Shown one piece after another: positions 1 through 12,823 of a stretch of DNA of 34,515 bases. The first letter of the stretch is position 1. Each line of letters starts with the position of its first letter. This DNA comes from Flavobacteriaceae bacterium (GTDB lineage Bacteria > Bacteroidota > Bacteroidia > Flavobacteriales > Flavobacteriaceae). The stretch spans positions 1 to 34,515 of the forward strand of contig NZFW01000035.1 of assembly GCA_002690805.1 (NCBI GenBank), in the 5' to 3' direction. The notes under the pieces are model-generated. The model saw nothing but the letters and a program-made list of their open reading frames with translations, made no database searches and was not told the DNA's origin. The position numbers and the translations under genes are program-made.

Positions 1-610
1 CATAAGTAAGCAGACAACACAAGTACAGATTTTGATTGTAGTTTTTTAGTTTTAGTAATAACTGTTTTACGTCTTTTATTGGACTGTGAAGCACTTCTTC
101 TTGCTTACGTGTTTTAAGTGTAGAGAGTTTTATAGGAAAGTCTCTTTGATGCAGAAAATTAACTAACACATTTACGTGTCTTCTAGTAGTATTGTAGCTA
201 GTGTTGTTATTGTATTTTAACGGAATAGAATCTATAAAAGAAGTAGTAATTGTTCCTTTTTTAATTAGTTGCTGTCTCAACAAAGTAGATAATCTTTTTA
301 GAGTTTTATTATACTCACTAGATAGAGGTTCTGCTAGTTTATCACTTATGATACTGTCGTACTTTTCTACTGTAGAGAGTTTGCGATACAGAGAATAATC
401 ATTAGAGACAATATAATTATAAACTTCTTTAGCAAGATGTAAGGTAATAGACCTACGCTGCTTTGCAGGATATGAGTTAGGATACAAAGAAGCACCTATT
501 ATTCTACCACTAAACAACCTGTAGCGTTTATTGTCAAGTTTAAAATCTATGTAATATTTTCCGTCTTTGCGTTTGCAGACTTTTGGGTAAGAAAGGTTTT
601 TATTTGGCAC
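1..610 (-). CDS. Tyrosine recombinase/integrase, N-terminal part (runs off window)
   Basis: An open frame of 203 codons runs leftward from a GTG at 610 to the window edge without a stop; a TAA lies directly upstream in frame, so GTG 610 is the earliest start. The N-terminus (KVCKRKDGKYYIDFKL, then KRYRLFSG) resembles the arm-binding domain of phage-type integrases. A helical core-binding region follows at about residues 60-160. The last visible residues (SPIKDVKQLLLKL, then NLYLCCLLTY) match the start of the catalytic domain in Bacteroidota integrases. The catalytic Arg, His-x-x-Arg and Tyr would lie to the left, so activity cannot be judged. The gene lies about 80 nt from a truncated tRNA gene, the usual place for the integrase of an integrated element. 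The family call rests on recalled sequence patterns. Confidence 0.75.
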   Translation of the reverse strand, partial: MPNKNLSYPKVCKRKDGKYYIDFKLDNKRYRLFSGRIIGASLYPNSYPAKQRRSITLHLAKEVYNYIVSNDYSLYRKLSTVEKYDSIISDKLAEPLSSEYNKTLKRLSTLLRQQLIKKGTITTSFIDSIPLKYNNNTSYNTTRRHVNVLVNFLHQRDFPIKLSTLKTRKQEEVLHSPIKDVKQLLLKLKNYNQNLYLCCLLTY

Positions 611-691
611 TTATATGGCAATTTAAAGATTAAACATTTAGTCTGTTTTCTTTAAACTCCTATAAATAAGGGTTTGAATAAATTAAATTTT
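1..691. mobile_element. Right end of an integrated element at tRNA-Ala
   Basis: Homology to tRNA breaks off at 692, and the sequence to its left encodes a tyrosine recombinase reading away from the tRNA. This is the classical layout of a tRNA-targeting integrative element. Only the integrase end is visible; the cargo and the other attachment site are outside the window. Whether it is a phage, an integrative conjugative element or a small genomic island cannot be told. The boundary is inferred from the loss of tRNA consensus. Confidence 0.55.
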
Positions 692-746
692 ACCCACTAC
701 CTCTTGACTGCCAGTCAAGCGCTCTAGCCAGCTGAGCTACATCCCC
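692..746 (-). tRNA. Truncated tRNA-Ala(GGC) / attachment site
   Basis: Read leftward from 746 the sequence has the 7-nt acceptor strand GGGGATG, TA, a D arm (GCTC/GAGC), the anticodon arm CTTGA-CTGGCAG-TCAAG with anticodon GGC (alanine), the variable loop AGGTA, and the first T-stem strand GTGGG plus one T. It then turns into AT-rich sequence (AAAATTTAATT). The rest of the T loop, the second T-stem strand and the 3' acceptor strand are missing, so this copy cannot fold into a tRNA. The palindromic anticodon arm is the kind of site tyrosine recombinases use. It may be a tRNA broken by insertion, or a fragment left at one end while an intact copy sits at the other. Confidence 0.75.
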
Positions 747-749
747 ATT

Positions 750-1490
750 TTAATTTTCATTTTCTTTAACAAGAAGTTTATGAATTGTTTCAAAAACTTC
801 AATATCACGTCTGAGCCATGATAGTTCAATCAATGTTGTCTCTATTTTAAAATTAACAATATTCCAAAATTTTAAATCATTTGAAAGTTTTTCAAAATCA
901 GTCTTAGGCCCTCCAAGAACTAATTCATTATTTCTACCTCCTAAAACAATTTCTTTATAATTAATGTTTTCATTAATATATGGTTCAATTCTATCATTAT
1001 ATTGTGCTTCATTATAGTCAGCCATTCCTTTTGATCTTTCAATATGCCTTACATACTTTTTAAGCATATTTTTTAATGAATCATTATTTACTTTATTTAT
1101 ATAGTCTAAAGCAATAAATTCTTGAGTAATTGGCATTGTATAATTTACTGGCCATGTAGTAGCTAAAGTTCCGAGTAAATTTTTTAAAACAGGAATAGAG
1201 TCTTTATTTTTTGATTTTATAATATCCAACGATCTAATCATCGAGTTTTTGAGATATTTTAATGTTTTTTGATGACGTATTTGATAGTCAATCGTTTCAT
1301 TGAATTCTATCTCAATATCTTCATAATAATCTTTTATCTCTTGTTGTTCAACTCTTTTATTATTCCAATTATCTATAGCTAGTGCGATTAGTATTCCACC
1401 AGTTACTAAAGCTATTTCTATAAGTATATGTTTAAAAGAAAGAGTTTTTTCATTTCCATTATTATCAATAATTCTTTTTAAATTAATCAT
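750..1490 (-). CDS. DUF6090 family membrane-anchored protein
   Basis: This 246-residue protein has a short N-terminal tail, one hydrophobic segment at about residues 23-40 (EIALVTGGILIALAIDNWN) and a long, charged, mostly helical remainder. The segment ending in ILIAL.I.NWN is the hallmark of DUF6090 proteins, which are abundant in Flavobacteriia and of unknown function. It is probably anchored in the inner membrane with its C-terminal part on one side. The ATG start at 1488-1490 lacks a visible ribosome-binding motif, as is normal here. Its stop codon ends only 3 nt before the 5' end of the truncated tRNA, leaving no room for a separate tRNA promoter. Confidence 0.75.
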   Translation of the reverse strand: MINLKRIIDNNGNEKTLSFKHILIEIALVTGGILIALAIDNWNNKRVEQQEIKDYYEDIEIEFNETIDYQIRHQKTLKYLKNSMIRSLDIIKSKNKDSIPVLKNLLGTLATTWPVNYTMPITQEFIALDYINKVNNDSLKNMLKKYVRHIERSKGMADYNEAQYNDRIEPYINENINYKEIVLGGRNNELVLGGPKTDFEKLSNDLKFWNIVNFKIETTLIELSWLRRDIEVFETIHKLLVKENEN

Positions 1491-1727
1491 TTTAGAACCC
1501 TATTAATTGAACATTTATTCACAATCTATATTAACTATTTCTATTGCTTTCGATATAATAGCTAGTCCTTAATCCATTTCATTTTTATTAACTCTCTTCT
1601 AGTTTGTTTTATCATATACCTTTATATTTTGTGAGTTATTATTTAAAAATAAGGAAATTTAGCTTTAGTTTCGAAATTATACCTTAACATAGTTAGAATT
1701 TAAAGTATAAGAATATATTTCAAAATT
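1491..1727. other. Intergenic region, longest gap in the window
   Basis: This is 237 nt of AT-rich sequence between two divergent genes. It must carry promoters in both directions. On the + strand TAGCTTTA near 1659-1666 matches seven of eight positions of the TAnnTTTG element, but without a good partner motif. I see no RNA gene, inverted repeat or convincing small gene. Confidence 0.4.
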
Positions 1728-2384
1728 ATGTTGCGAACATATGTATTAATAGCTTTAATCTTTTCCTTCAATTTTTCTTATTCTCAGGGAGATAAAAACC
1801 TTTATAAACAATACCGAACTGGTCCAGATCCTGATAATTTTTATCATGTATGGAATTATTCTTTTTATGGAAAACTAAACATATTAAATTCTGATCAAGA
1901 CTACACAAAACATTCAATTGGAAAGGGAGGTGGATTTTTAGTTCAAAGACTAAATTCTAAAACATTTGGATGGTCGACTGGTATTGAATTTAATGAAATT
2001 AATTATAGATATGAAGGGGTTCTAGAAAATTCTATTGATAAAACAAATTGGCTTGGCATTCCAATATCAATTAGGCTTTATCCGTCTAGAAGATATTTTA
2101 TTGAACTAGGCTTTAAATTTCACTATTTTTTAAATGCCAAAAATTCTATAATTAGTAATTCAGAAACCAAATCTCTAAAATATCCTAAAGAAGCTTTTAA
2201 AAACACATTTGGAGCGTTTATAACTGCACAATATCAAATATGGAAAAGATTGAACATAGGCTTTCAATATCAATACTTAAAAGGCAGAAATGTAAATCCA
2301 TCAGAAATCCAGCCAAGTATATTTAATGGTTTGTCATTTAAGGTTGGGGCTTTTATTAAAAACCCCAGTAAACGCCCAAATTAG
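1728..2384 (+). CDS. Putative outer-membrane beta-barrel protein
   Basis: The protein has 218 residues and a typical Sec signal peptide (LIALIFSFNFSYSQG, cleavage expected after about residue 19). The mature part alternates polar and hydrophobic residues and is rich in Tyr, Phe, Trp and Gly, with strand-like segments such as WSTGIEFNEINYRY and IELGFKFHYFL, ending in FKVGAFI. This fits a small barrel of roughly eight strands, similar in style to the PorT/OmpW-like barrels of Bacteroidota, but I recognise no specific family. The stop codon overlaps the stop of the convergent lipoprotein gene by 4 nt. Function unknown. Confidence 0.6.
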   Translation: MLRTYVLIALIFSFNFSYSQGDKNLYKQYRTGPDPDNFYHVWNYSFYGKLNILNSDQDYTKHSIGKGGGFLVQRLNSKTFGWSTGIEFNEINYRYEGVLENSIDKTNWLGIPISIRLYPSRRYFIELGFKFHYFLNAKNSIISNSETKSLKYPKEAFKNTFGAFITAQYQIWKRLNIGFQYQYLKGRNVNPSEIQPSIFNGLSFKVGAFIKNPSKRPN

Positions 2385-2683
2385 AAGTTATTCTTAATGA
2401 TTGTATCATTAGCAATTATGATTCTCTTCAAAGAATCTTTAGCTAAACTATCAGCTATAACCAGAAATCCCTTTGGAGTAATATCATCAGAAAAATAAAT
2501 TTCTTGTTTTCTGTTATTTAATTCAACAAACTTTCCTGAACCTCTTAATATTTTATCATTTTTTTTATTTTCTTCATTGGTATTTTTAGAAGGTGTTTTA
2601 TAAAAATTATTTACAATTAAACAAGATTGAAAAAAAATTAAAAAAATAGCTGAATAGAATATATTTACTGATCGTTTCATCAT
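2381..2683 (-). CDS. Small hypothetical lipoprotein
   Basis: This protein has 100 residues. The N-terminus (MMKRS, then a hydrophobic stretch ending FLIFFQSC) is a lipoprotein signal with the acylated Cys at residue 21. The rest is hydrophilic, contains a Lys/Asn-rich linker at about residues 28-45, and has no motif I recognise. It lies 19 nt downstream of the LpxR-like gene on the same strand, so the two may be co-transcribed. The function is not known, and no link to lipid A can be shown from sequence alone. Confidence 0.6.
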   Translation of the reverse strand: MMKRSVNIFYSAIFLIFFQSCLIVNNFYKTPSKNTNEENKKNDKILRGSGKFVELNNRKQEIYFSDDITPKGFLVIADSLAKDSLKRIIIANDTIIKNNF

Positions 2684-2702
2684 TATTAAATTTACAAAAA
2701 TT

Positions 2703-3581
2703 TTAAAATTTATTTCTGATAGTTATGTTTAGGACTTGATGTCTATTTAATCTTTGACCTGGAGTATCTTTACTCATAGATTGATATAACATTAAAAATG
2801 TCCATTTATTTTTTTGAGAAAAAAAACCAAACTCAAAATTATTTCTATAAACATTATTTTTATATGTTTTTTCTCTTGGAGCAAAATCATATAAGTTGCC
2901 ACTTAAAGCAAAATCATGTGGAATGTACTGTTGTCTTGTTCCAAAATAAATTCCTCCTGAAGATTCATGCTTTGAAAAAGAAACCTTTTGAAAAGGCATT
3001 TTATTCCCTACTCCTATTAAAACACCAATTCTTCCTGTAAATAGAATTCTATAGCTTGATATCTTAGAATATAATTGAGAAGTAATATGGAAATAATCTG
3101 ATAAACTTTTCCCTTTGTTTATTTGTCCAAACACACCAAATTGAAGGCTTTGAGGTTGGGCGCCTACCCAACTCAGTTCAGGTAAATTTAAAAATGTTTT
3201 ATGGTAAAAATTTTGAAAAGTTTGGGCTAGTGAAGCATCTCCAGTAACTCCTATTTCTAACCCCCAACTGTAGCTTGAATTTTCACTTAAAAACACTTCC
3301 CTTTCATTTTGAAGAAATAGCCATCCACTGTAAGGATAGTCCATTTTTGAAATATCGCTAGTGTATCGTCGTGATGGATGGTATATATCTTGACCTAGTC
3401 TCCAGTGATTAACTTTGTTCTCAATTTTTTTTCCATAAGAAATAAGTATTCCACTTGAATAATATTGATCTGTTTGAAAATATAAATCATTATCAACAGA
3501 AAGCTCATAATATGACTGAGAATAATTTTTCAAAGCCAAAAGAGCAAAAAAGACAAATAAATAAATTGACTTTTTTTTCAA
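2703..3581 (-). CDS. Lipid A deacylase LpxR family protein (DUF2219)
   Basis: LpxR proteins are outer-membrane barrels that remove the 3'-acyloxyacyl chain of lipid A. This 292-residue homologue has a signal peptide (LFVFFALLALKNYSQS) followed by the family's opening motif, VDNDLYFQTDQYYSSG, carrying the conserved Asn-Asp pair. A second conserved block lies at about residues 112-145 (IGVTGDASLAQTFQ, then FYHKTF, then LSWVGAQPQ), with a His in the expected place. The C-terminus ends in strand pattern and Phe (LNITIRNKF), as outer-membrane proteins do. The start codon is TTG; no ATG or GTG lies near. Activity on lipid A is inferred from the family; in Bacteroidota many homologues have no assigned substrate. 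Confidence 0.75.
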   Translation of the reverse strand: MKKKSIYLFVFFALLALKNYSQSYYELSVDNDLYFQTDQYYSSGILISYGKKIENKVNHWRLGQDIYHPSRRYTSDISKMDYPYSGWLFLQNEREVFLSENSSYSWGLEIGVTGDASLAQTFQNFYHKTFLNLPELSWVGAQPQSLQFGVFGQINKGKSLSDYFHITSQLYSKISSYRILFTGRIGVLIGVGNKMPFQKVSFSKHESSGGIYFGTRQQYIPHDFALSGNLYDFAPREKTYKNNVYRNNFEFGFFSQKNKWTFLMLYQSMSKDTPGQRLNRHQVLNITIRNKF

Positions 3582-3707
3582 TTTTAATTTATAGTTGTAT
3601 TACACTAATTTAACAGAATTATAAATTTACAAACTATAATACCATAAATAAATTGTAAAATTATAGCTCAAAAATGCTAAAAACTTTATTTTGGTAAAAA
3701 AATTGTA

Positions 3708-4223
3708 ATGATTAGACTCGCTTATTTTTCTGATTTAAATAGGGTTAAAAAAATAACTGAAGCTTGTGCAGAAGATATGATCTCTAAGAATATTTATCAG
3801 TGGAACGAACATTATCCGTCTAAAGAAGTTTTTAAAAATGATATAGAAAATAAAGAGTTATATGTTACTGAAATAAATGAATTGATTGTGGGATGTGTAA
3901 TGTTTTCAAAAAAGAAAGATGAGCTTTACAATAAAATTGATTGGCTTACTTCAGATCCTGACAATCTGTATATTCATAGATTAGCTGTACATCCTAAAAG
4001 TCAAAATATGGGAATCGCAAGATCAATGATGGATTTTGCTGAGGCAGAAGCAGTTAAACTAAATTGTGAGTCAGTAAGACTTGATACATTTAGTAAAAAT
4101 CCAAGAAACTCTAGGTTTTATAAAGCCAGGGGATATGTAAAATTAGGTAATGTTTATTTTCCTAAGCAAAGTGAATTTCCATTTTTCTGTTTTGAAAAAA
4201 TTTTAAAAAATAAAAGATCATGA
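3708..4223 (+). CDS. GNAT family N-acetyltransferase
   Basis: This is a cytoplasmic protein of 171 residues with the GNAT fold. A substrate-side N-terminal half precedes the central strand YIHRLAVHPKSQNMGIARSMMDF at about residues 92-113, whose Q/R-x-x-G-x-A-like loop binds acetyl-CoA pyrophosphate. A C-terminal block has NPRNSRFYKARGY, typical of the last GNAT helix and strand. The acetylated substrate cannot be predicted. The stop overlaps the start of queD by 4 nt (ATGA), so the two genes are translationally coupled and probably form an operon. Confidence 0.85.
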   Translation: MIRLAYFSDLNRVKKITEACAEDMISKNIYQWNEHYPSKEVFKNDIENKELYVTEINELIVGCVMFSKKKDELYNKIDWLTSDPDNLYIHRLAVHPKSQNMGIARSMMDFAEAEAVKLNCESVRLDTFSKNPRNSRFYKARGYVKLGNVYFPKQSEFPFFCFEKILKNKRS

Positions 4224-4675
4224 TTAATAAAATACGAATAACAAAAGAGTTTAGTCTTGAAACTGGTCATGCGCTATATGGACATGATGGGTTATGTAAA
4301 AATGTTCACGGTCACAGCTATAAATTATATGTTACTGTAATAGGTGACCCAATCGAAAACAAAAGTGATGTAAAGCTTGGAATGGTTATTGACTTTGGAG
4401 ATTTAAAAAAAATTGTTAAAGAAGAAATAATAATTCCGTTTGATCATGCTACAGTTTTAAATTGTAATTCTCCTCATAAAGAATTGGCTAATGACATGGA
4501 AGAAAAAGGAAATAAAATAATAAGAGTTAATTATCAACCTACTTGTGAAATGTTAGTCATTGATTTTGCTAAAAAAATTAAAAAAAGACTTCCACAAAAC
4601 TTAAAACTCTATTCTTTAAAACTTAGAGAAACAGCAACTGCATTTGCAGAGTGGTATGCCGAGGATAATAATTGA
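4220..4675 (+). CDS. queD: 6-carboxy-5,6,7,8-tetrahydropterin synthase (QueD/PTPS family)
   Basis: QueD converts dihydroneopterin triphosphate to 6-carboxytetrahydropterin, the second step towards queuosine and other 7-deazapurines. The protein has 151 residues. It shows the zinc-binding histidines (ETGHALYGHDGLC and the HGHSY motif), the catalytic Cys in GLCKNVHGH, the block GMVIDFGDLKKIV, and a DHATVLN segment near residue 75. The C-terminal Glu in RETATAFAEWY anchors the pterin. No other queuosine genes lie in the window. A PTPS role in biopterin metabolism is the alternative, but QueD is usual in this phylum. Confidence 0.85.
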   Translation: MINKIRITKEFSLETGHALYGHDGLCKNVHGHSYKLYVTVIGDPIENKSDVKLGMVIDFGDLKKIVKEEIIIPFDHATVLNCNSPHKELANDMEEKGNKIIRVNYQPTCEMLVIDFAKKIKKRLPQNLKLYSLKLRETATAFAEWYAEDNN

Positions 4676-4681
4676 TGTATT

Positions 4682-6970
4682 TTAAAATCCAAACCCATCT
4701 AAATCATCTTCAGGCATTTCTTGAATATATTTATCACAATCTAGCGGAATTGTAAGGATTTCAGGTTCAATAAAATCCTCTGAAGAAATTCCAAGCTCAG
4801 GCTTAAGATATACTTCTTTCATAAATTGTCCCCATATAGGCAGAGCCATTGTTGCTCCTTGACCATAGGCTATATCTTTAAAATGAATGGAACGATCTTC
4901 ACCTCCTACCCAAACTCCAGTTACTAGGTTAGGCACTATTCCCATAAACCAACCATCACTCTGATTTTGAGTAGTTCCTGTTTTTCCTGCAATTGGATTT
5001 TCAAAAATATAAGGATATCCTGAAACAACATTTTTATAAATATAATTTTCTTTCTCTAATCCTGCATGTCTTAGCCTGGCTCCAGATCCGTGCTCTGTGA
5101 CTCCTTTCATCAAACTAATGGTAACATACGCTGCTTCCTCTGAAATAACATCTTGAGTTTCTGGAACAGATTCGTAAATAACAGTTCCATTTTTATCCTC
5201 TATTCTAGATATCATTACTGGTTTGACATATATACCCTTATTTGCGAATGTTCCATATGCTCCCACCATTTCAAAAAGACTAATATCTGGTGTGCCCAGT
5301 GCAATGGAGGGGACTGCAGGGATTCTGGAACTTATCCCCATTTTTCTTGCTAAATCAATAACTGGTCTTGGACCTACTTTATCCATCAATCTCGCACTAA
5401 CAGTATTAACTGAATTGGCTAATGCATTTTTTAAAGTCCTGTTTTTTCCATATTTATCCCCAGAATTCTTTGGACACCAGGCGTCGATATTTCCGTGTTT
5501 CATGGGCTCTATACAAAACAAAGCGTCTGGAAGTATATCACAGGGTGAAAGCTTTAATTGGTCAATTGCTGTAGCATACAAAAAAGGCTTAAATGTAGAT
5601 CCAATTTGTCGTCTTCCCTGTTTTACTTGATCATATTGAAAATGTTTGTAGTTATATCCTCCAACCCAAACTTTTACATGTCCAGTTTGAGGCTCAATAG
5701 ACATCATCGATGATCTTAAAAAATACTTGTAATATTTTATCGAATCAAGAGGAGTCATTATTGTATCGATTTCACCTTTCCATGAAAAAACAGTCATTGG
5801 AGCAGGTTCATTAAAATTTTTTAAAATCTTATCTTTTGACCATCCAGCATTAGTTTTATTTCTCCAACGCTCAGACCTATATGCAGTCCTTTCAAGTAAG
5901 GTGTCTATTTGACCCGTTCTTAAGTCTAGAAAAGGTGCTGTTTCATTAATTTGTTTTGTGTTTTGTCTAAAAAATTCTTTTTGTAAGTTTTTCATATGGC
6001 TACTGACTGAATGTTCCCCTATTTTTTGAAGTTCAGAATCAATAGTTGTATATATTTTTAAACCATCCCTGTAAAGATTATAAGTTTCACCGTTTTCTTT
6101 AGGATTTTGTTTTATCCATTTTTTCATAAAATCTTGAAGGTAGGCCCTAAAATATGTAGCTAATCCCTCTCTATGGGATTCGGGAGTATAATCAATTTCT
6201 AAATTCATTTTGGTTAAAGAATCTGATTCTTGAGAAGTTAAAAAGCCATTTCTTTTCATTTGTTTAAAAACAATGTTTCGTCTTCTTTTAACTAATTCGG
6301 GTCTTCTTAACGGATTATAATATGAAGAGTTTTTTAACATTCCTACTAGGGTAGCAGATTGTTCAATTTTTAAGTTTTTTGGGGTTGTATTAAAAAATAT
6401 TTTTGATGCTGATCTTATACCATCAGCATTATAACCAAAATCATATATGTTTAAATACATAGCTATTATTTCCTTTTTGGTATATCTTCTTTCTAGCTGA
6501 ACAGACAAAACCCATTCTTTTACTTTTTGAATTACCGCCTCATATAAATTTCGAGACCTGACTCCAACAAAAAGTTGTCTTGCTAGCTGTTGAGTTATCG
6601 TACTCGCTCCTCCTCTTTTTCCTAAAAAAATGAAAGCACTAATTGTCCTTCGCCAATCTATTCCTGAATGTAAAAAAAACCTTTCGTCTTCAGTTGCTAT
6701 AAGACCATTTACAATGTTTTCTGGAAGATCATCAAACTCAATAGGAGTTCTATTATCCTCATAATAATATTTACCTAATACAACTCCATCGGTTGAAAAT
6801 ATTTGAGTAGCCAAATTAGTTTTAGGGTTTTCAAGTTGTTGGAGGTCGGGCATTGGCCCATAATATCCATTTGCAGCTTTATAAAAAATTATTACAACAA
6901 TTATAATTCCAGAAAAAATAATTCCCCAAAGTATATTAATTAATCGTTTAAAAGACTTCGAATAATTCAT
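4682..6970 (-). CDS. Class A penicillin-binding protein (PBP1A-type transglycosylase/transpeptidase)
   Basis: This bifunctional enzyme polymerises and cross-links peptidoglycan in the periplasm. It has 762 residues. A transmembrane anchor lies at about residues 12-30. The GT51 glycosyltransferase domain has EDERFFLHSG near residue 94 (catalytic Glu), GGASTITQQLARQLF, and KVKEWVLSVQLE. The transpeptidase domain has the Ser-x-x-Lys box GSTFKPF near residue 456, Ser-Val-Asn in NSVNTVS, and KTGTT near 662, so all catalytic motifs are present. The C-terminus is short and acidic. Its start lies 3 nt after the stop of gldH, so the two are probably co-transcribed, a common flavobacterial pairing. Confidence 0.95.
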   Translation of the reverse strand: MNYSKSFKRLINILWGIIFSGIIIVVIIFYKAANGYYGPMPDLQQLENPKTNLATQIFSTDGVVLGKYYYEDNRTPIEFDDLPENIVNGLIATEDERFFLHSGIDWRRTISAFIFLGKRGGASTITQQLARQLFVGVRSRNLYEAVIQKVKEWVLSVQLERRYTKKEIIAMYLNIYDFGYNADGIRSASKIFFNTTPKNLKIEQSATLVGMLKNSSYYNPLRRPELVKRRRNIVFKQMKRNGFLTSQESDSLTKMNLEIDYTPESHREGLATYFRAYLQDFMKKWIKQNPKENGETYNLYRDGLKIYTTIDSELQKIGEHSVSSHMKNLQKEFFRQNTKQINETAPFLDLRTGQIDTLLERTAYRSERWRNKTNAGWSKDKILKNFNEPAPMTVFSWKGEIDTIMTPLDSIKYYKYFLRSSMMSIEPQTGHVKVWVGGYNYKHFQYDQVKQGRRQIGSTFKPFLYATAIDQLKLSPCDILPDALFCIEPMKHGNIDAWCPKNSGDKYGKNRTLKNALANSVNTVSARLMDKVGPRPVIDLARKMGISSRIPAVPSIALGTPDISLFEMVGAYGTFANKGIYVKPVMISRIEDKNGTVIYESVPETQDVISEEAAYVTISLMKGVTEHGSGARLRHAGLEKENYIYKNVVSGYPYIFENPIAGKTGTTQNQSDGWFMGIVPNLVTGVWVGGEDRSIHFKDIAYGQGATMALPIWGQFMKEVYLKPELGISSEDFIEPEILTIPLDCDKYIQEMPEDDLDGFGF

Positions 6971-6973
6971 ATT

Positions 6974-7462
6974 TTAATTGCTTAGCTTCAAGGTGATACC
7001 AACACTAATTATACCAGGTAAATTTTGTAATCCAAACTCATTTTGATTTTCTCTCATTGCATGTTTTAAAACCACTGAATATTTTGATTCACTTGAAAAA
7101 TTAATATTTTTCTTCCATGATAATAAGCTTTCTTTTACATTCCCAAACCCTTTTCCTAAATATTTACCTGAGCTATCTGCCATTAAATATTCAAGTGTGT
7201 CAGTACTAACCTCAACACCATCCTTCAGAAAGGTAGTGATCAAGTAAATATTAGAAAATGGGTAATTATTGTCATTCCTAATATTGATAAAAATATTTCC
7301 ATTAGAATTTGGAGTTTTATTAAGTTTAAATGTAACAGGCTCCGATAGTTCCCATCCATTTGAAAAATCTTTAAAATCACTATACCATATATCACTGGAA
7401 CAACTACAAAAATTTATTAGAATAAAAATCAGTAATGCTTTACAATTAAATTTTGTGTTCAT
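6974..7462 (-). CDS. gldH: Gliding motility lipoprotein GldH
   Basis: GldH is one of the lipoproteins required for gliding in Flavobacterium johnsoniae, and it is widespread in this class, including in non-gliding members. This 162-residue copy has a lipoprotein signal with the Cys at residue 21 (INFCSC). It has the characteristic blocks NIFINIRNDNNYPFSNIYLI, then DTLEYLMADSSGKYLGKGFG, and the late segment VVLKHAMRE. Length and order agree with the family. It is followed at 3 nt by the PBP gene. Its biochemical role is unresolved; a link to envelope stability or the type IX secretion/gliding machinery is known only genetically. Confidence 0.88.
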   Translation of the reverse strand: MNTKFNCKALLIFILINFCSCSSDIWYSDFKDFSNGWELSEPVTFKLNKTPNSNGNIFINIRNDNNYPFSNIYLITTFLKDGVEVSTDTLEYLMADSSGKYLGKGFGNVKESLLSWKKNINFSSESKYSVVLKHAMRENQNEFGLQNLPGIISVGITLKLSN

Positions 7463-7474
7463 ATTAATAATTGT

Positions 7475-8506
7475 CTAATTTTTATATTTTATATACTTTG
7501 ATCTTCCTTTTTTAAAAATTTTATTGCTGTTATGCGTGCCTTTTCTGAGATGTTTTTGAGCTTCAAGAGGCATATTAGTAATATCTTGACATTCTTTAGA
7601 ACAGCATCCATTATTTTTTTCTAAACATGATTGACATTGAATAAAAAGCAAATGACAAGCTGAGTTCTCACAGTTAACATGGGTGTCACAGGGCAAGCCA
7701 CATTGATGACATTTAGAGATAATTTCATCAGAAATCCTTTCTCCTCTTCGCTCATCAAAAACAAAGTTTTTACCTCTGAATTTATTTTCAATATTTGAAT
7801 TACTTACCTGTCTTGAATATTCAATTATTCCTCCTTCTAATTGAAAAACATTTTTAAATCCTTTGTGCTTGAAATATGCACTTGCCTTTTCACATCTAAT
7901 CCCTCCTGTACAATACATCAAAATGTTTTTTTCTTTTTTATCTTGAAGAATGGTGTTTTCAATAAATGGTAATGAATCTCTAAAAGTATCTACATCGGGA
8001 GTAATGGCACCTTTAAAATGGCCTATTTCACTTTCGTAATGATTACGAACATCTAAGCAAACAGTATTTGCGTCTTCCAAAAGAATATTAAATTCTTTTG
8101 CATTAACGTGTTTCCCTCTATTTGTTACGTCAAATGAGCTATCATTCAGGCCATCAGCCACTATTTTATCTCTTACCTTGATAGTAAGCTTTAAAAATGA
8201 TTTATTATTATGCTCAACAGCAATATTTAATCTAACATTTTTTAAAAAAGATATTTTATCTAAGTGTATCTTAAATTTCTTAAAATTTTCTGCAGGTAAA
8301 GAAAGTTGAGCGTTGATTCCTTCGTTTGCAACATATATCCTACCCAATACGTCTAATTGATCCCAGTTCAGAAAAAGATAATCTCTAAAAATAAATGGAT
8401 TTCCAATTTTGGCATATTTGTAAAATGAAAGGGTGAGTCGCTCGTTTCCAGCAGATTCAATAATTGCTGAGCGCTCCTTAGCGCTTAATTTGTTGTACAG
8501 TTGCAT
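7475..8506 (-). CDS. trhO: tRNA uridine(34) hydroxylase TrhO (YceA, rhodanese family)
   Basis: TrhO makes 5-hydroxyuridine at position 34 of certain tRNAs using oxygen. The protein has 343 residues, the usual length. An N-terminal domain (FRDYLFLNWDQLDVLGRIYVA, then EGINAQLSLP) is followed by a rhodanese domain with CLDVRNHYESEIGHFKGA and the active-site loop MYCTGGIRCEKASAYF (first Cys catalytic). The C-terminal region, about residues 265-300, is Cys-rich (CHQCGLPCD, CENSAC, CQSCLEK, CCSKEC) and probably binds zinc. It stands alone between gldH and a peptidase gene. Confidence 0.92.
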   Translation of the reverse strand: MQLYNKLSAKERSAIIESAGNERLTLSFYKYAKIGNPFIFRDYLFLNWDQLDVLGRIYVANEGINAQLSLPAENFKKFKIHLDKISFLKNVRLNIAVEHNNKSFLKLTIKVRDKIVADGLNDSSFDVTNRGKHVNAKEFNILLEDANTVCLDVRNHYESEIGHFKGAITPDVDTFRDSLPFIENTILQDKKEKNILMYCTGGIRCEKASAYFKHKGFKNVFQLEGGIIEYSRQVSNSNIENKFRGKNFVFDERRGERISDEIISKCHQCGLPCDTHVNCENSACHLLFIQCQSCLEKNNGCCSKECQDITNMPLEAQKHLRKGTHNSNKIFKKGRSKYIKYKN

Positions 8507-8542
8507 GCTATACTATTTTAAAAATATCGTATAAAGATAATA

Positions 8543-9868
8543 TTATTCTATGGCTTTATCCTTTTGACCAATCAAAATAAGGTTTGTTTGTCTTCCATTT
8601 ACATATTTAAATCCTTCAGAACTGAAATATCCAGCCTCCTCAAGCATAACTCGAATTTCTTTTTTCCATTTTTTAATATAAACTTTTGTATTCAATTCGA
8701 TAGCATATACAGTTTCATGCTGAAGCTGATGTTCTCCTGAACCTGGAATACCATCTTGAGCATCCCACATGCCAAATGTTGTTCCAGCAGAGTGACCAAA
8801 AACCCCCAAAGGATGTGTATAAATTTGAGGCTTGTAACCTGCTTGTTTTGCTTCATTTAATGCCTTTCTAAGAATTACATTCCCTGTTTGTCCCTTGACA
8901 AAATTATTTGTCAGAATATCCTGAACATTGTTTCCTTCTTTTAGAGCTTTTTCTAATTCCTCAGGTGCTCTAGTTTCACCTCTCTTTAAAACATATGCGA
9001 GTTCCTGACAGTCAGTATTGAGAGTTAAATAGCTTATACCAAAGTCACAGTGAACTAAGTCGCCTGGGAGAATTATATCAAATTTAGACTTCCCGTCAAA
9101 TGCATACATATCACTTGACTCATTTCTTTGGACATCTACGGTAGGATGAAACCAAGTATTTAATCCCAGGCTTCTTACCTTTTCTCTAAGCCACCAAACA
9201 ACATCTTCTGTAGTTGTTACTCCGGGAGTAATTACCTTGTTTGAAAAGGCTTCCCTAATAATATTATGAGTAATTGAAACAAGTTGATTGTAAATTACCA
9301 TTTCTTTTTTTGTTCTTGTTTCAATCCATGATACAGCTAATGGCTCCGAAGAAATGATTTTAGATTTAAACTTCCTTGGAAGAGATTCCATTAAATTATC
9401 AAAATCAGTTCTAACAATACCGTCCGCTAATGCAAAATTTTCAGAAGTATTTACTGCAATTTTATTAGGGTCTTGAGAAATTATATAGTTAGATAATGCT
9501 TTCCATTGATCAGGCTCTTTATCCTTGTCCCACAAAGATGGAATAAGTTTTCCAAAAGGGTATCTTGTAATAGCTGCTGATTTTAATTTTCCATTTTTCA
9601 AAGAAAAAACTATGATTGTTCTTCTTCTGGCATTTAACCATGTTGGAGGTAGAAGTGTCTTAACCACAGGGTCTTCATTATACTCTCTTGTAATTAAAAC
9701 CCACATATCAATATCATGAGCTTTCATAAGTTTTGGCAACAGATTTTCAAGCCTATCTTTTTGAATCTTTTCTATAATTACTGCTTGACTTTTTAAGTCT
9801 AATATGTTCTGAGACTTTAATACGGTTGTAAAAAATAAAAATATCGTATATATATATAAATTTTTCAT
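8543..9868 (-). CDS. Secreted M24 family metallopeptidase (Xaa-Pro aminopeptidase-like)
   Basis: This is a 441-residue protein with a signal peptide (IFLFFTTVLKSQN), so probably periplasmic or exported. The N-terminal half resembles the creatinase/prolidase N domain. The C-terminal half has the pita-bread metal site: HCDFGISY and LNTDCQELAY supply the two Asp ligands, HPLGVFGHSAG supplies the His, and YAIELNTKV and RVMLEEAGYF supply the two Glu. All five dinuclear metal ligands therefore appear present. M24 enzymes remove N-terminal residues before proline or split X-Pro dipeptides; which applies here is unknown. Confidence 0.85.
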   Translation of the reverse strand: MKNLYIYTIFLFFTTVLKSQNILDLKSQAVIIEKIQKDRLENLLPKLMKAHDIDMWVLITREYNEDPVVKTLLPPTWLNARRRTIIVFSLKNGKLKSAAITRYPFGKLIPSLWDKDKEPDQWKALSNYIISQDPNKIAVNTSENFALADGIVRTDFDNLMESLPRKFKSKIISSEPLAVSWIETRTKKEMVIYNQLVSITHNIIREAFSNKVITPGVTTTEDVVWWLREKVRSLGLNTWFHPTVDVQRNESSDMYAFDGKSKFDIILPGDLVHCDFGISYLTLNTDCQELAYVLKRGETRAPEELEKALKEGNNVQDILTNNFVKGQTGNVILRKALNEAKQAGYKPQIYTHPLGVFGHSAGTTFGMWDAQDGIPGSGEHQLQHETVYAIELNTKVYIKKWKKEIRVMLEEAGYFSSEGFKYVNGRQTNLILIGQKDKAIE

Positions 9869-9915
9869 AGCATTAAACTAATTAAAATTTTGTTAATAAT
9901 CACTTTTAGTGCAAC

Positions 9916-9946
9916 TTGACCTAGAATAAAAGAAATATTACATTAG
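9916..9946 (+). promoter_or_regulatory. Probable recA promoter
   Basis: TTG at 9916-9918 and TACATTAG at 9939-9946 are separated by 20 nt, close to the Bacteroidota sigma-70-type consensus (TTG or TTTG, about 20 nt, TAnnTTTG; one mismatch). The recA ATG is 16 nt further on. No LexA-type palindrome is obvious. Confidence 0.5.
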
Positions 9947-9962
9947 CTAAAAACAAAAAGTA

Positions 9963-10970
9963 ATGGCAGAAGATAACAAAGCAAAAATAAAAGCTTTACA
10001 ACTAACCCTTGATAAACTAGACAAAACATACGGAAAAGGGACAGTAATGAAGTTAGGGGATGAGGTTGTAGTAGAGACTGAGTCAATTTCATCTGGTTCT
10101 TTAGGTCTCGACATTGCTCTTGGTGTTGGAGGGTATCCTAGAGGTAGAGTAATAGAAATTTATGGTCCCGAATCTTCAGGGAAAACAACATTAACACTTC
10201 ACGCAATTGCTGAATGTCAAAAAAAGGGGGGTATAGCTGCTTTTATTGATGCGGAGCATGCTTTTGATCGTATATATGCAGAAAAACTTGGAGTTGATAT
10301 AAAAGAATTAATTATTTCACAACCAGATCATGGCGAACAAGCACTTGAAATAGCAGATAATTTAATTCGGTCAGGTGCAGTTGATATAGTTGTAATTGAC
10401 TCTGTCGCAGCTCTAACTCCAAAAAGTGAAATTGAAGGAGAAATGGGAGACTCTAAAATGGGGCTTCATGCTAGATTAATGTCACAGGCACTCAGAAAAT
10501 TAACTGCTTCAATCAGTAAGACAAACTGTACTGTTTTTTTTATAAATCAACTGAGAGAGAAAATCGGGGTCATGTTCGGAAACCCAGAAACAACAACAGG
10601 AGGAAATGCTTTAAAGTTTTATGCTTCAGTAAGATTAGATATTAGAAGATCTACTCAAATAAAAAATGGAGATGCTCAAGTAATGGGAAATAAAACAAGA
10701 GTTAAAGTTGTCAAAAACAAGGTTGCTCCACCTTTCAAAATAACTGAATTTGACATTCTTTATGGAGAAGGGATTTCTAAAGTGGGTGAAATAATTGACC
10801 TTGGAGTTAGTTATGAGATAATAGATAAAAGTGGTTCATGGTTCAGTTATGGTGATACAAGGCTTGGGCAAGGAAGAGATGCAGTTAAAAATCTTTTAAT
10901 AGATAATCCAGAATTGATGGAGGAGCTTGAAAGTAAAATAATGAAATCTATTGACGCCTTGAATAGTTAG
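9963..10970 (+). CDS. recA: Recombinase RecA
   Basis: RecA forms filaments on single-stranded DNA and drives strand exchange and the SOS response. The 335-residue protein has the Walker A motif GPESSGKTT at residues 68-76, the block [11 protein letters not shown], the Walker B strand [12 protein letters not shown], loop L1 [22 protein letters not shown] split over the usual positions, and loop L2 ([22 protein letters not shown]). The C-terminal domain is present (ENPELMEE-like: [13 protein letters not shown]) and ends with little of the acidic tail found in enterobacteria. It has its own promoter and terminator, so it is a single-gene unit. Confidence 0.98.
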
Positions 10971-10991
10971 CTATTTACTTAATAGCTTTTT
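10969..10991 (+). terminator. Intrinsic terminator of recA
   Basis: A perfect 7-bp stem, AGCTATT/AATAGCT, with loop TACTT is followed by a run of five T. It begins inside the last codon of recA and covers the last codons and stop of the convergent acyltransferase gene. A stem of this length is modest, but the T-tract fits a rho-independent terminator. Confidence 0.6.
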
Positions 10992-11760
10992 GCCAGACTT
11001 TAATTGCTTCAATAGCTGATTTCTTAGGATCATTAATTAATTTTTCTTCAATAAAACTTCTTGTTTTATCCATTATTTTTTTAAAATCTCTTTCCTTTAA
11101 TTTTGTTGTAGAAATAGGTTTATAAATAGACGCTCGAAGCTCTCCAGGGAATCCATGTGTTGTGTACCAAGGAAATTTTCTTTTACAATCAAAAAATACA
11201 ATTGGAAGTACTGGAAGTTTGTGTTCAATAGCTAGTTTGAATGCTCCATGCTTAAATTCATTAAGTAAATTTGTTTCAACAGTATATTGTTTTTCTGGAA
11301 AAATACAAACACTATACCCTTTATTTAACTTTTCAGTTGCTTGGCTATAAACTGCATATCTACTTGCTTTATCACTTCTATCAACCATTATCGCTGCTCG
11401 TCTATATAAAAACCCGAAAATTGGTATACTATTTAGCTCTTTTTTTCCAACAAATACAAATGGCTTCTTGAATAGCCTTAACATAATCATTGGATCAATA
11501 TAACTAGTGTGATTAGCTACTAATAAGTATGACTTGTCTTCTTCAAGGGTTGTATTAACACTTTTTTTTATATAAAATCCCATTCCAAACAAAACAAAAG
11601 GCGCCCATATATTTCTAGCATACCAATAAACAATATTATAACCTCTGGGAAGAATAAAAATAAAAGGAGATATAGGAAAGATTATAAGTACAGGTACTGA
11701 ACATAGGCAATAAAACCATATTCTCCAGAAAACTAGCAGAATTCTTCTTATTAATCTCAC
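10975..11760 (-). CDS. Lysophospholipid acyltransferase (PlsC family)
   Basis: Members transfer an acyl chain to lysophosphatidic acid or related lipids at the inner membrane. The 261-residue protein has two hydrophobic N-terminal segments at about residues 8-45, the catalytic His-x4-Asp motif in VANHTSYIDPMIM near residue 83, the block FVGKKELNSIPIFG, and a third motif FPEKQYT in place of the common FPEGTRS. A downstream PVLPIVFFD matches motif IV. The unusual third motif (glycine and arginine lost) may mean a different lipid acceptor, for example an ornithine- or amino-lipid, but this is inference. The start is GTG. Confidence 0.82.
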   Translation of the reverse strand: MRLIRRILLVFWRIWFYCLCSVPVLIIFPISPFIFILPRGYNIVYWYARNIWAPFVLFGMGFYIKKSVNTTLEEDKSYLLVANHTSYIDPMIMLRLFKKPFVFVGKKELNSIPIFGFLYRRAAIMVDRSDKASRYAVYSQATEKLNKGYSVCIFPEKQYTVETNLLNEFKHGAFKLAIEHKLPVLPIVFFDCKRKFPWYTTHGFPGELRASIYKPISTTKLKERDFKKIMDKTRSFIEEKLINDPKKSAIEAIKVWQKAIK

Positions 11761-11829
11761 AAAAAAAATTTACTCAATCGAATATACAAACCCTAGGTTA
11801 AAATTAGCTAACCCTCTTAATAAAAAAAT

Positions 11830-11837
11830 TACCTTTG
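11830..11837 (+). promoter_or_regulatory. Possible -7 element for trpS
   Basis: TACCTTTG matches the Bacteroidota TAnnTTTG element exactly and lies 17 nt before the trpS ATG. No good TTTG is seen about 20 nt upstream, so confidence is moderate. Confidence 0.4.
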
Positions 11838-11854
11838 CTATATTATTTAAAAAT

Positions 11855-12823
11855 ATGTCGAGAATATTAACAGGAGTTCAATCAACAGGAACACCTCATT
11901 TAGGAAATCTTCTAGGTGCAGTAATTCCAGCTATAGATCTTGCCAATAAAAAAGATAATGAGTCTTTTTTATTTATTGCTGACTTACACTCCTTAACACA
12001 GATAAAAAAAGAAAATGAACTTAGAGACAATACCCTATCAACAGCTTCGGCTTGGCTTGCCTGTGGTCTTAATCCAAATAAAACTGTTTTTTATCGTCAA
12101 AGTGATGTAAGTCAAGTTACAGAGTTATCATGGTATTTATCATGTTTTTATCCTTATCAAAGATTAACCTTAGCACATTCATTCAAGGATAAATCCGACA
12201 ACTTATCTGATATAAATGCAGGTTTGTTTGGTTATCCAATCCTAATGGCAGCAGATATTCTACTTTATGATGCAGAGTTTGTCCCTGTTGGAAAAGATCA
12301 ATTACAACATTTAGAGATGACAAAAAATGTTGCGTCAAGATTTAATAATAAAATGGGGGAAACATTTATTTTACCTAAACCAATTATACAAGAAAATGCT
12401 CATTATGTGCCTGGAATTGATGGTCAAAAAATGAGTAAATCAAAACAAAATACAATCAATATATTTTTACCAGATAATAAATTACGAAAACAAATCATGA
12501 GTATAGCTACTGACAGTATTCCTGTGGAAAGTCCAAAAAATCCTGAAAAATGTACTGTTTTTAAACTTTATTCTTTAATAGCATCCAAAGTTGAAATTGA
12601 TCTTCTGAGAAAAAGATATTTATCTGGAGGAGTTGGTTACGGTGAGGTTAAAAAATTACTTTTTGATTTAATCATTACAAAGTTTAGTTCAGAAAGAAAA
12701 AAATTTGAATATTATAATTCTAATCCTGAAGAAGTTAATATCGCTCTTGTTAAAGGTGCGGAAAAGGCCAGAAAAGTAGCTAATTCAGTTTTACTTAGAG
12801 TGAGAGATAAAATAGGTTACTAA
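11855..12823 (+). CDS. trpS: Tryptophan--tRNA ligase
   Basis: This class I aminoacyl-tRNA synthetase charges tRNA-Trp. It has 322 residues, normal for bacterial TrpS. The HIGH-type signature is TGTPHLGNLLG at residues 11-21, and the KMSKS motif appears as GQKMSKSKQN near residue 190. Other typical blocks are FIADLHSLT, LTLAHSFKDK and YPILMAADILLYDAEFVPVG, which build the tryptophan and ATP sites. The ATG at 11855 is directly followed by SRILTGVQSTG, the expected N-terminus. The next gene begins 47 nt later on the same strand. Confidence 0.97.
   Translation: MSRILTGVQSTGTPHLGNLLGAVIPAIDLANKKDNESFLFIADLHSLTQIKKENELRDNTLSTASAWLACGLNPNKTVFYRQSDVSQVTELSWYLSCFYPYQRLTLAHSFKDKSDNLSDINAGLFGYPILMAADILLYDAEFVPVGKDQLQHLEMTKNVASRFNNKMGETFILPKPIIQENAHYVPGIDGQKMSKSKQNTINIFLPDNKLRKQIMSIATDSIPVESPKNPEKCTVFKLYSLIASKVEIDLLRKRYLSGGVGYGEVKKLLFDLIITKFSSERKKFEYYNSNPEEVNIALVKGAEKARKVANSVLLRVRDKIGY

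Follow-up and report, generated by a model that had tools for sequence, protein, structure and literature searches.

A tRNA-Ala(GGC) fragment beside an integrase gene: the probable junction of a small island that restores the 5′ end of its target

A tRNA gene that breaks off at its T loop close to an integrase gene raises the question of whether an inserting element destroyed its target or left a fragment behind and rebuilt the gene at its other end. We examined this question in the window, a stretch of 34,515 nucleotides (bases 1–34515 of contig C16) from the metagenome-assembled genome G000, which comprises 1.38 Mb in 38 contigs and is 74% complete. We conclude that the window very probably contains the integrase-side junction of a small, 5′-end-restoring island in the chromosomal tRNA-Ala(GGC) gene, and not the site of a gene destruction.

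A tRNA 5′ half at its native locus

The window itself contains a 5′ tRNA fragment, the N-terminal part of an integrase and the host flank (Table 1). The fragment, GGGGATGTAGCTCAGCTGGCTAGAGCGCTTGACTGGCAGTCAAGAGGTAGTGGGT at 746–692 on the minus strand, agrees at 54 of 55 nucleotides with gene positions 1–55 of tRNA-Ala(GGC), which stands intact at this locus in a sister genome, G004 (98% identity, E = 1.3e-21). Identity is complete over gene positions 1–48, the sole mismatch falls at position 49 and the match stops at the T loop; neither ARAGORN nor Rfam calls a tRNA anywhere in the window. The broken gene noticed in the original prediction is therefore real, with its position corrected from 680–746 to 692–746 on the minus strand. 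Judged from its sequence, the segment is most likely both the leftover chromosomal 5′ half and the start of the island attP.

Between the fragment and the integrase start lie 81 unrelated bases, close to the approximately 80 nt first proposed, and the description of this junction as one without a restored tRNA was right. The 25 AT-rich bases that follow the fragment are equal in length to the segment from the T loop to the 3′ end in the orthologous locus of another genome, G325, and unrelated to it in sequence. The putative attP arm holds TTTATAGGAGTTTA at 653–666, common to the window and G325, and two TGCCA direct repeats at 605–609 and 616–620 with a spacing of 11 bp; repeats of this kind also precede other integrases of the clade.

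The surroundings of the fragment are chromosomal. In G004, the protein encoded directly upstream of the intact tRNA-Ala(GGC) is 78% identical to the product of 750..1490, and window positions 692–1589 and 1642–12000 align to the same genome at 77–79% (blastn). Both the upstream gene and the colinear flank match the intact locus, so the flank of the window belongs to the place where tRNA-Ala(GGC) natively resides, and the fragment represents the native 5′ half. The flank also occurs in a third congener, G001, where the tRNA is interrupted after position 40 and gives way to different AT-rich DNA, with 58 bases left to the contig end; the tRNA-Ala(GGC) site was probably hit more than once.

Two further features of the flank may be recorded here. 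About 3.1 kb that is absent from the window lies between the tRNA-upstream gene and the remaining colinear flank in G004 (L232, contig C25, about 1190–4303), and G001 also has about 3.1 kb at that place, without the window's upstream gene. The 246-aa gene has five relatives (36–40% identity) clustered at G000:C36:59299-65361.

Table 1. Features of the window and of the related islands used for comparison. Handles beginning with L denote integrase loci.
Feature	Location	Strand	Basis or remark
Tyrosine recombinase (integrase), N-terminal 203 aa	2..610	-	73% identity to the full-length G277 integrase with PF00589
Putative integrase-side attP arm	603..666	-	Comparison of upstream regions
AT-rich 25 bases in place of the tRNA 3′ half	667..691	-	Alignment of the window with G325
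5′ 55 nt of tRNA-Ala(GGC)	692..746	-	Acceptor 5′ strand, D arm, anticodon arm, variable loop, T-stem 5′ strand
Anticodon loop and edges (gene positions 30–41), inferred crossover zone	706..717	-	Fragment limits across the clade, L148 markers
Chromosomal gene (246 aa, no family) immediately upstream of the tRNA	750..1490	-	Host flank, not island
Host chromosomal flank	1642..12000	.	Colinear at 77% with G004 and G001 (blastn)
Far-end intact tRNA in related islands	L127 5.4 kb; L129 4.1 kb; L144 3.8 kb; L147 3.9 kb; L148 7.2 kb; L149 8.9 kb		Distance beyond the integrase start
Cargo regions of related islands	L149:11169-17650; L148:9102-14714; L127:11072-12916; L129:6497-7732; L147:11874-13055; L120:2995-4779		

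The integrase and its tRNA-linked relatives

The integrase reading frame begins with a GTG at 610, reads away from the tRNA, as the original prediction had it, and is open to the contig end at window base 1. On its own it matches no family in Pfam, PHROG or NCBIfam, because only the N-terminal part is present; the catalytic part lies beyond the contig end, and the identification rests on the relative from G277, which is complete at 348 aa and matches both PF00589 (Phage_integrase) and PHROG integrases. The motifs LLRPH, SFRH and GHSS...LTYLRG are conserved in the clade and, from their sequence, can be read as the catalytic motifs of tyrosine recombinases. No near relatives of the integrase were found in phage, plasmid and viral collections, nor was the exact tRNA/integrase junction found in viral contigs. 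In G004, a broken copy of the window integrase with an unrelated 5′ part lies at the end of contig C20 (L060/L235), with 92% DNA identity over window positions 1–242.

To place the junction among its relatives, integrase homologues were gathered from 397 genomes of the family, together with 80 genome_contigs loci. Upstream DNA was readable at 76 loci, and at 71 of them a tRNA piece lies 37–119 bp upstream of the integrase; in four of the five readable loci without such a piece, the integrase was matched in part only. Three configurations occur among the 71: a 5′ half co-directional with the integrase, which is the form seen in the window (17 loci), an antisense 3′ half or larger 3′ part (52) and an intact co-directional tRNA (2). 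Each tRNA was assigned through its best BLAST match in a library built from the tRNAs of the collected loci; single isoacceptor labels may therefore be in error, and CAT anticodons, labelled Met, may be Ile2. The clade is otherwise from Bacteroidetes; the record of L144 is titled Rhodobacteraceae and those of L177 and L186 Euryarchaeota archaeon, and these three are probably mis-binned contigs.

Intact tRNAs at the far ends of related islands

The relatives show what the window, cut short at its first base, does not reach: an intact tRNA at the far end, with a 5′ half of island origin. In all six fully assembled islands of the 5′-half form, the far end carries the tRNA again, intact and in the same orientation; G351, G388, G342 and G308, four of the genomes collected first, give the same picture, and their loci are among the six. 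Intact tRNAs also mark the far ends of 3′-half islands in G277, G026, G046 and G151, at 6–24 kb, and no far end with only a 3′ half was seen among the loci examined. In L185, the 5.9-kb contig breaks off inside a recurrence of the tRNA repeat, and no far copy occurs in the sequence available for L125 (about 26.6 kb), L178 (about 5 kb) and L189 (about 10 kb). The suggestion that a leftover fragment is paired with an intact tRNA at the far end thus holds in every fully assembled homologous island; for the window's own island, whose far end is unassembled, we infer the same by analogy.

Several smaller observations concern these far ends. A 5.9-kb contig, G428:C303 (L209/L218), has the same tRNA-Ala 5′ repeat at both ends and resembles a single island flanked by its direct repeats. 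In L149, and partly in L147, nearly the same DNA precedes the leftover 5′ half and the far-end tRNA, which gives the appearance of islands placed one behind another at a single tRNA. An island-borne promoter is not supported as a general feature: the Bacteroidetes-type -7 box, TAnnTTTG, stands at a plausible distance upstream of the far-end tRNA in L127 only.

A probable crossover inside the anticodon arm

Sequence differences within the L148 island locate the exchange. Its leftover 5′ half and its far-end copy differ at positions 16 and 28, as does the DNA upstream of them. The 5′ half at the far end, together with the DNA upstream of it, closely resembles that of the L149 island and is therefore island-borne; the leftover half has native bases and native upstream DNA. 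At position 51 the roles are reversed: the base on the integrase side is one that the islands of L148 and L149 have in common, and the base at the far end goes with the native 3′ half. Positions 28 and 51 therefore bracket the crossover, and the new 5′ half came from the island. In the clade as a whole, no 5′ fragment ends before position 41 and no 3′ fragment begins after position 30, so that both forms have the anticodon loop with its edges in common; the integrase may recognise both arms of the anticodon stem.

These observations suggest a mechanism in which the integrase would act within the anticodon arm and recombine the tRNA gene with the island attP. The chromosomal 5′ half would join the integrase side of attP, which here offers no usable 3′ half, and would remain as a dead fragment. 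The opposite side of attP would bring a new 5′ half, together with upstream DNA of its own, to the native 3′ half at the far end, a joining that would rebuild an intact tRNA-Ala(GGC) several kilobases away. By analogy with the relatives, the source organism has probably not lost its tRNA-Ala(GGC).

Restoration, destruction or artefact

Evidence that complicates this account comes from the orthologous locus of G325, where an intact tRNA-Ala(GGC) precedes the attP arm known from the window and the 32 N-terminal codons of a closely related integrase, with unrelated sequence beyond. An intact tRNA next to this integrase remnant counts against reading the window's fragment as a leftover half. The only wholly different part of the tRNA-to-integrase junction, between the window and G325, is the 25 bases after GTGGGT, and their lengths are equal. 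From this comparison, the junction in the window may descend from one with a 3′ half beside the integrase. Such a descent is compatible with an attP that carried both halves, of which the integrase-side one has decayed, and it is compatible with a true loss of the gene too. In the latter case, a once-restored 3′ half beside the integrase was replaced or decayed over those 25 nt, the tRNA-Ala(GGC) was destroyed and tRNA-Ala(UGC) reads GCC and GCU, an outcome that the original prediction had also allowed for. Besides the intact tRNA of G325 and the equal length of the replaced segment, this explanation can point to the source genome, where a whole-genome tRNA scan, as originally proposed, found no intact or second tRNA-Ala(GGC) in the 74% complete assembly. 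That absence is weak evidence, however, because even tRNA-Ala(UGC) is missing among the tRNAs called in so incomplete a genome. A pattern search of the genus for the missing 3′ half returned in G000 only a match with three mismatches, taken for chance, and none in G001; the proposed search to the left of the window has no sequence to work on in the assembly, since the window starts at base 1 of C16. The loss of the gene, with its consequence for GCC and GCU decoding, has no positive support, but it keeps a small probability for this genome, because the far end is unassembled and the assembly incomplete. Against it stand the intact far-end copies in all six fully assembled 5′-half islands, and the loci L148 and L149, where tRNA identity on the integrase side extends to positions 63–65 (to 55 in the window) and this partial 3′ identity coexists with a restored tRNA. 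The same extended identity suggests, as far as sequence can tell, a decayed integrase-side half in an attP with two halves. On the record of the relatives we favour such a decayed half over true gene loss, which we consider unlikely.

A decayed duplicate of tRNA-Ala(GGC) lying next to an unrelated integrase by chance has nothing to recommend it beyond the absence of a visible second end. It is strongly disfavoured by the adjacency of a tRNA half and an integrase in 71 of the 76 readable homologous loci, with the same junction in dozens of genomes, by the match of the host flank to the orthologous, intact tRNA-Ala locus of the sister genome, and by the undecayed state of the tRNA part itself, and we regard it as highly improbable. 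We attach equally little credence to an assembly chimera that joined a host tRNA to an unrelated integrase contig. The contig does start inside the integrase, and contig C20 of G004 also ends in the same gene; but the independently assembled G325 has the same order of tRNA, arm and integrase, with 80% DNA identity over window positions 516–746, and the anatomy of the junction agrees with that in many other assemblies. Restoration at the far end of a 5′-end-restoring island therefore remains our preferred reading. It follows for annotation that a 5′ tRNA fragment without a restored copy beside an integrase should not be read as the loss of a tRNA, and that incomplete assemblies will systematically seem to miss such a tRNA.

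Relation to known islands, and cargo

Among the 3,919 islands in Islander, 159 have a 5′ fragment and 3,760 a 3′ fragment (PMC4383910), and 2,083 have an anticodon-centred site (PMC4383910), so that a junction like this one belongs to a kind already known, though in the minority. The window shares with the Islander 5′-fragment class a tyrosine integrase at the element end, a terminal tRNA fragment and a chromosomal tRNA locus; the regenerated tRNA at the other end is seen in the window's relatives, the window's own far end being unassembled. Unlike that class, the clade described here mixes 5′- and 3′-fragment forms among close relatives (17 and 52 junctions, respectively). The usual 3′-restoring islands resemble the window in that the integrase closely follows the tRNA and points away from it, and this is the form of the clade members L133 and L137 (with a 3′ fragment 8.6 kb away in L137); they differ in that the tRNA next to the integrase in the window is not regenerated. 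Tycheposons (PMC10872708), cargo islands of aquatic bacteria that sit at tRNA genes and have a tyrosine recombinase, can be likened to these islands as functional analogues only.

The fully assembled islands of the window's form are small, at 3.8–8.9 kb, and consist of an integrase and cargo; no replication or transfer genes were found among the proteins scanned in the relatives' islands. The cargo of L149 is a type I restriction-modification system, as is apparently that of L148 from the layout of its reading frames, that of L127 includes a YadA-head/S74 surface protein, and L129, L147 and L120 carry DUF285 proteins. The type I restriction set was recognised through Pfam, and PADLOC, run on ten cargo proteins, gave no defence match.

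Repeated changes of target and insertion side

Integrase subfamilies are usually taken to be constant in their target tRNA and in the side on which they insert. Within this clade, both have changed repeatedly. On a quick tree of 70 integrases, the insertion side requires nine changes, seven of them forced by the starred branches, and the target label requires 27, counts that depend on tRNA labels assigned by similarity. The apparent novelty is that a single clade has, among 70 members, flipped its side at least 7–9 times and changed its target about 27 times; the searchable literature, outside which most subscription papers lie, yielded no description of an integrase clade with such use of both sides and of many tRNAs. 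As a tentative explanation, which we regard as possible but short of probable, the clade might read the near-palindromic anticodon stem in either direction, such that a new tRNA piece in attP would suffice to retarget the element and to flip it between 5′- and 3′-restoring forms. With target and side both changing repeatedly among close relatives, target switching by tRNA-directed integrases would become open to direct tests. Integrases that are 94–99% identical already use different tRNAs, in one pair with opposite orientations: L127 (5′ half, CAT) and L128 (3′ half, Ala) share 94% identity, L143 (CAT) and L153 (Asn) 97%, and L154 (CAT) and L179 (Asn) 99%.
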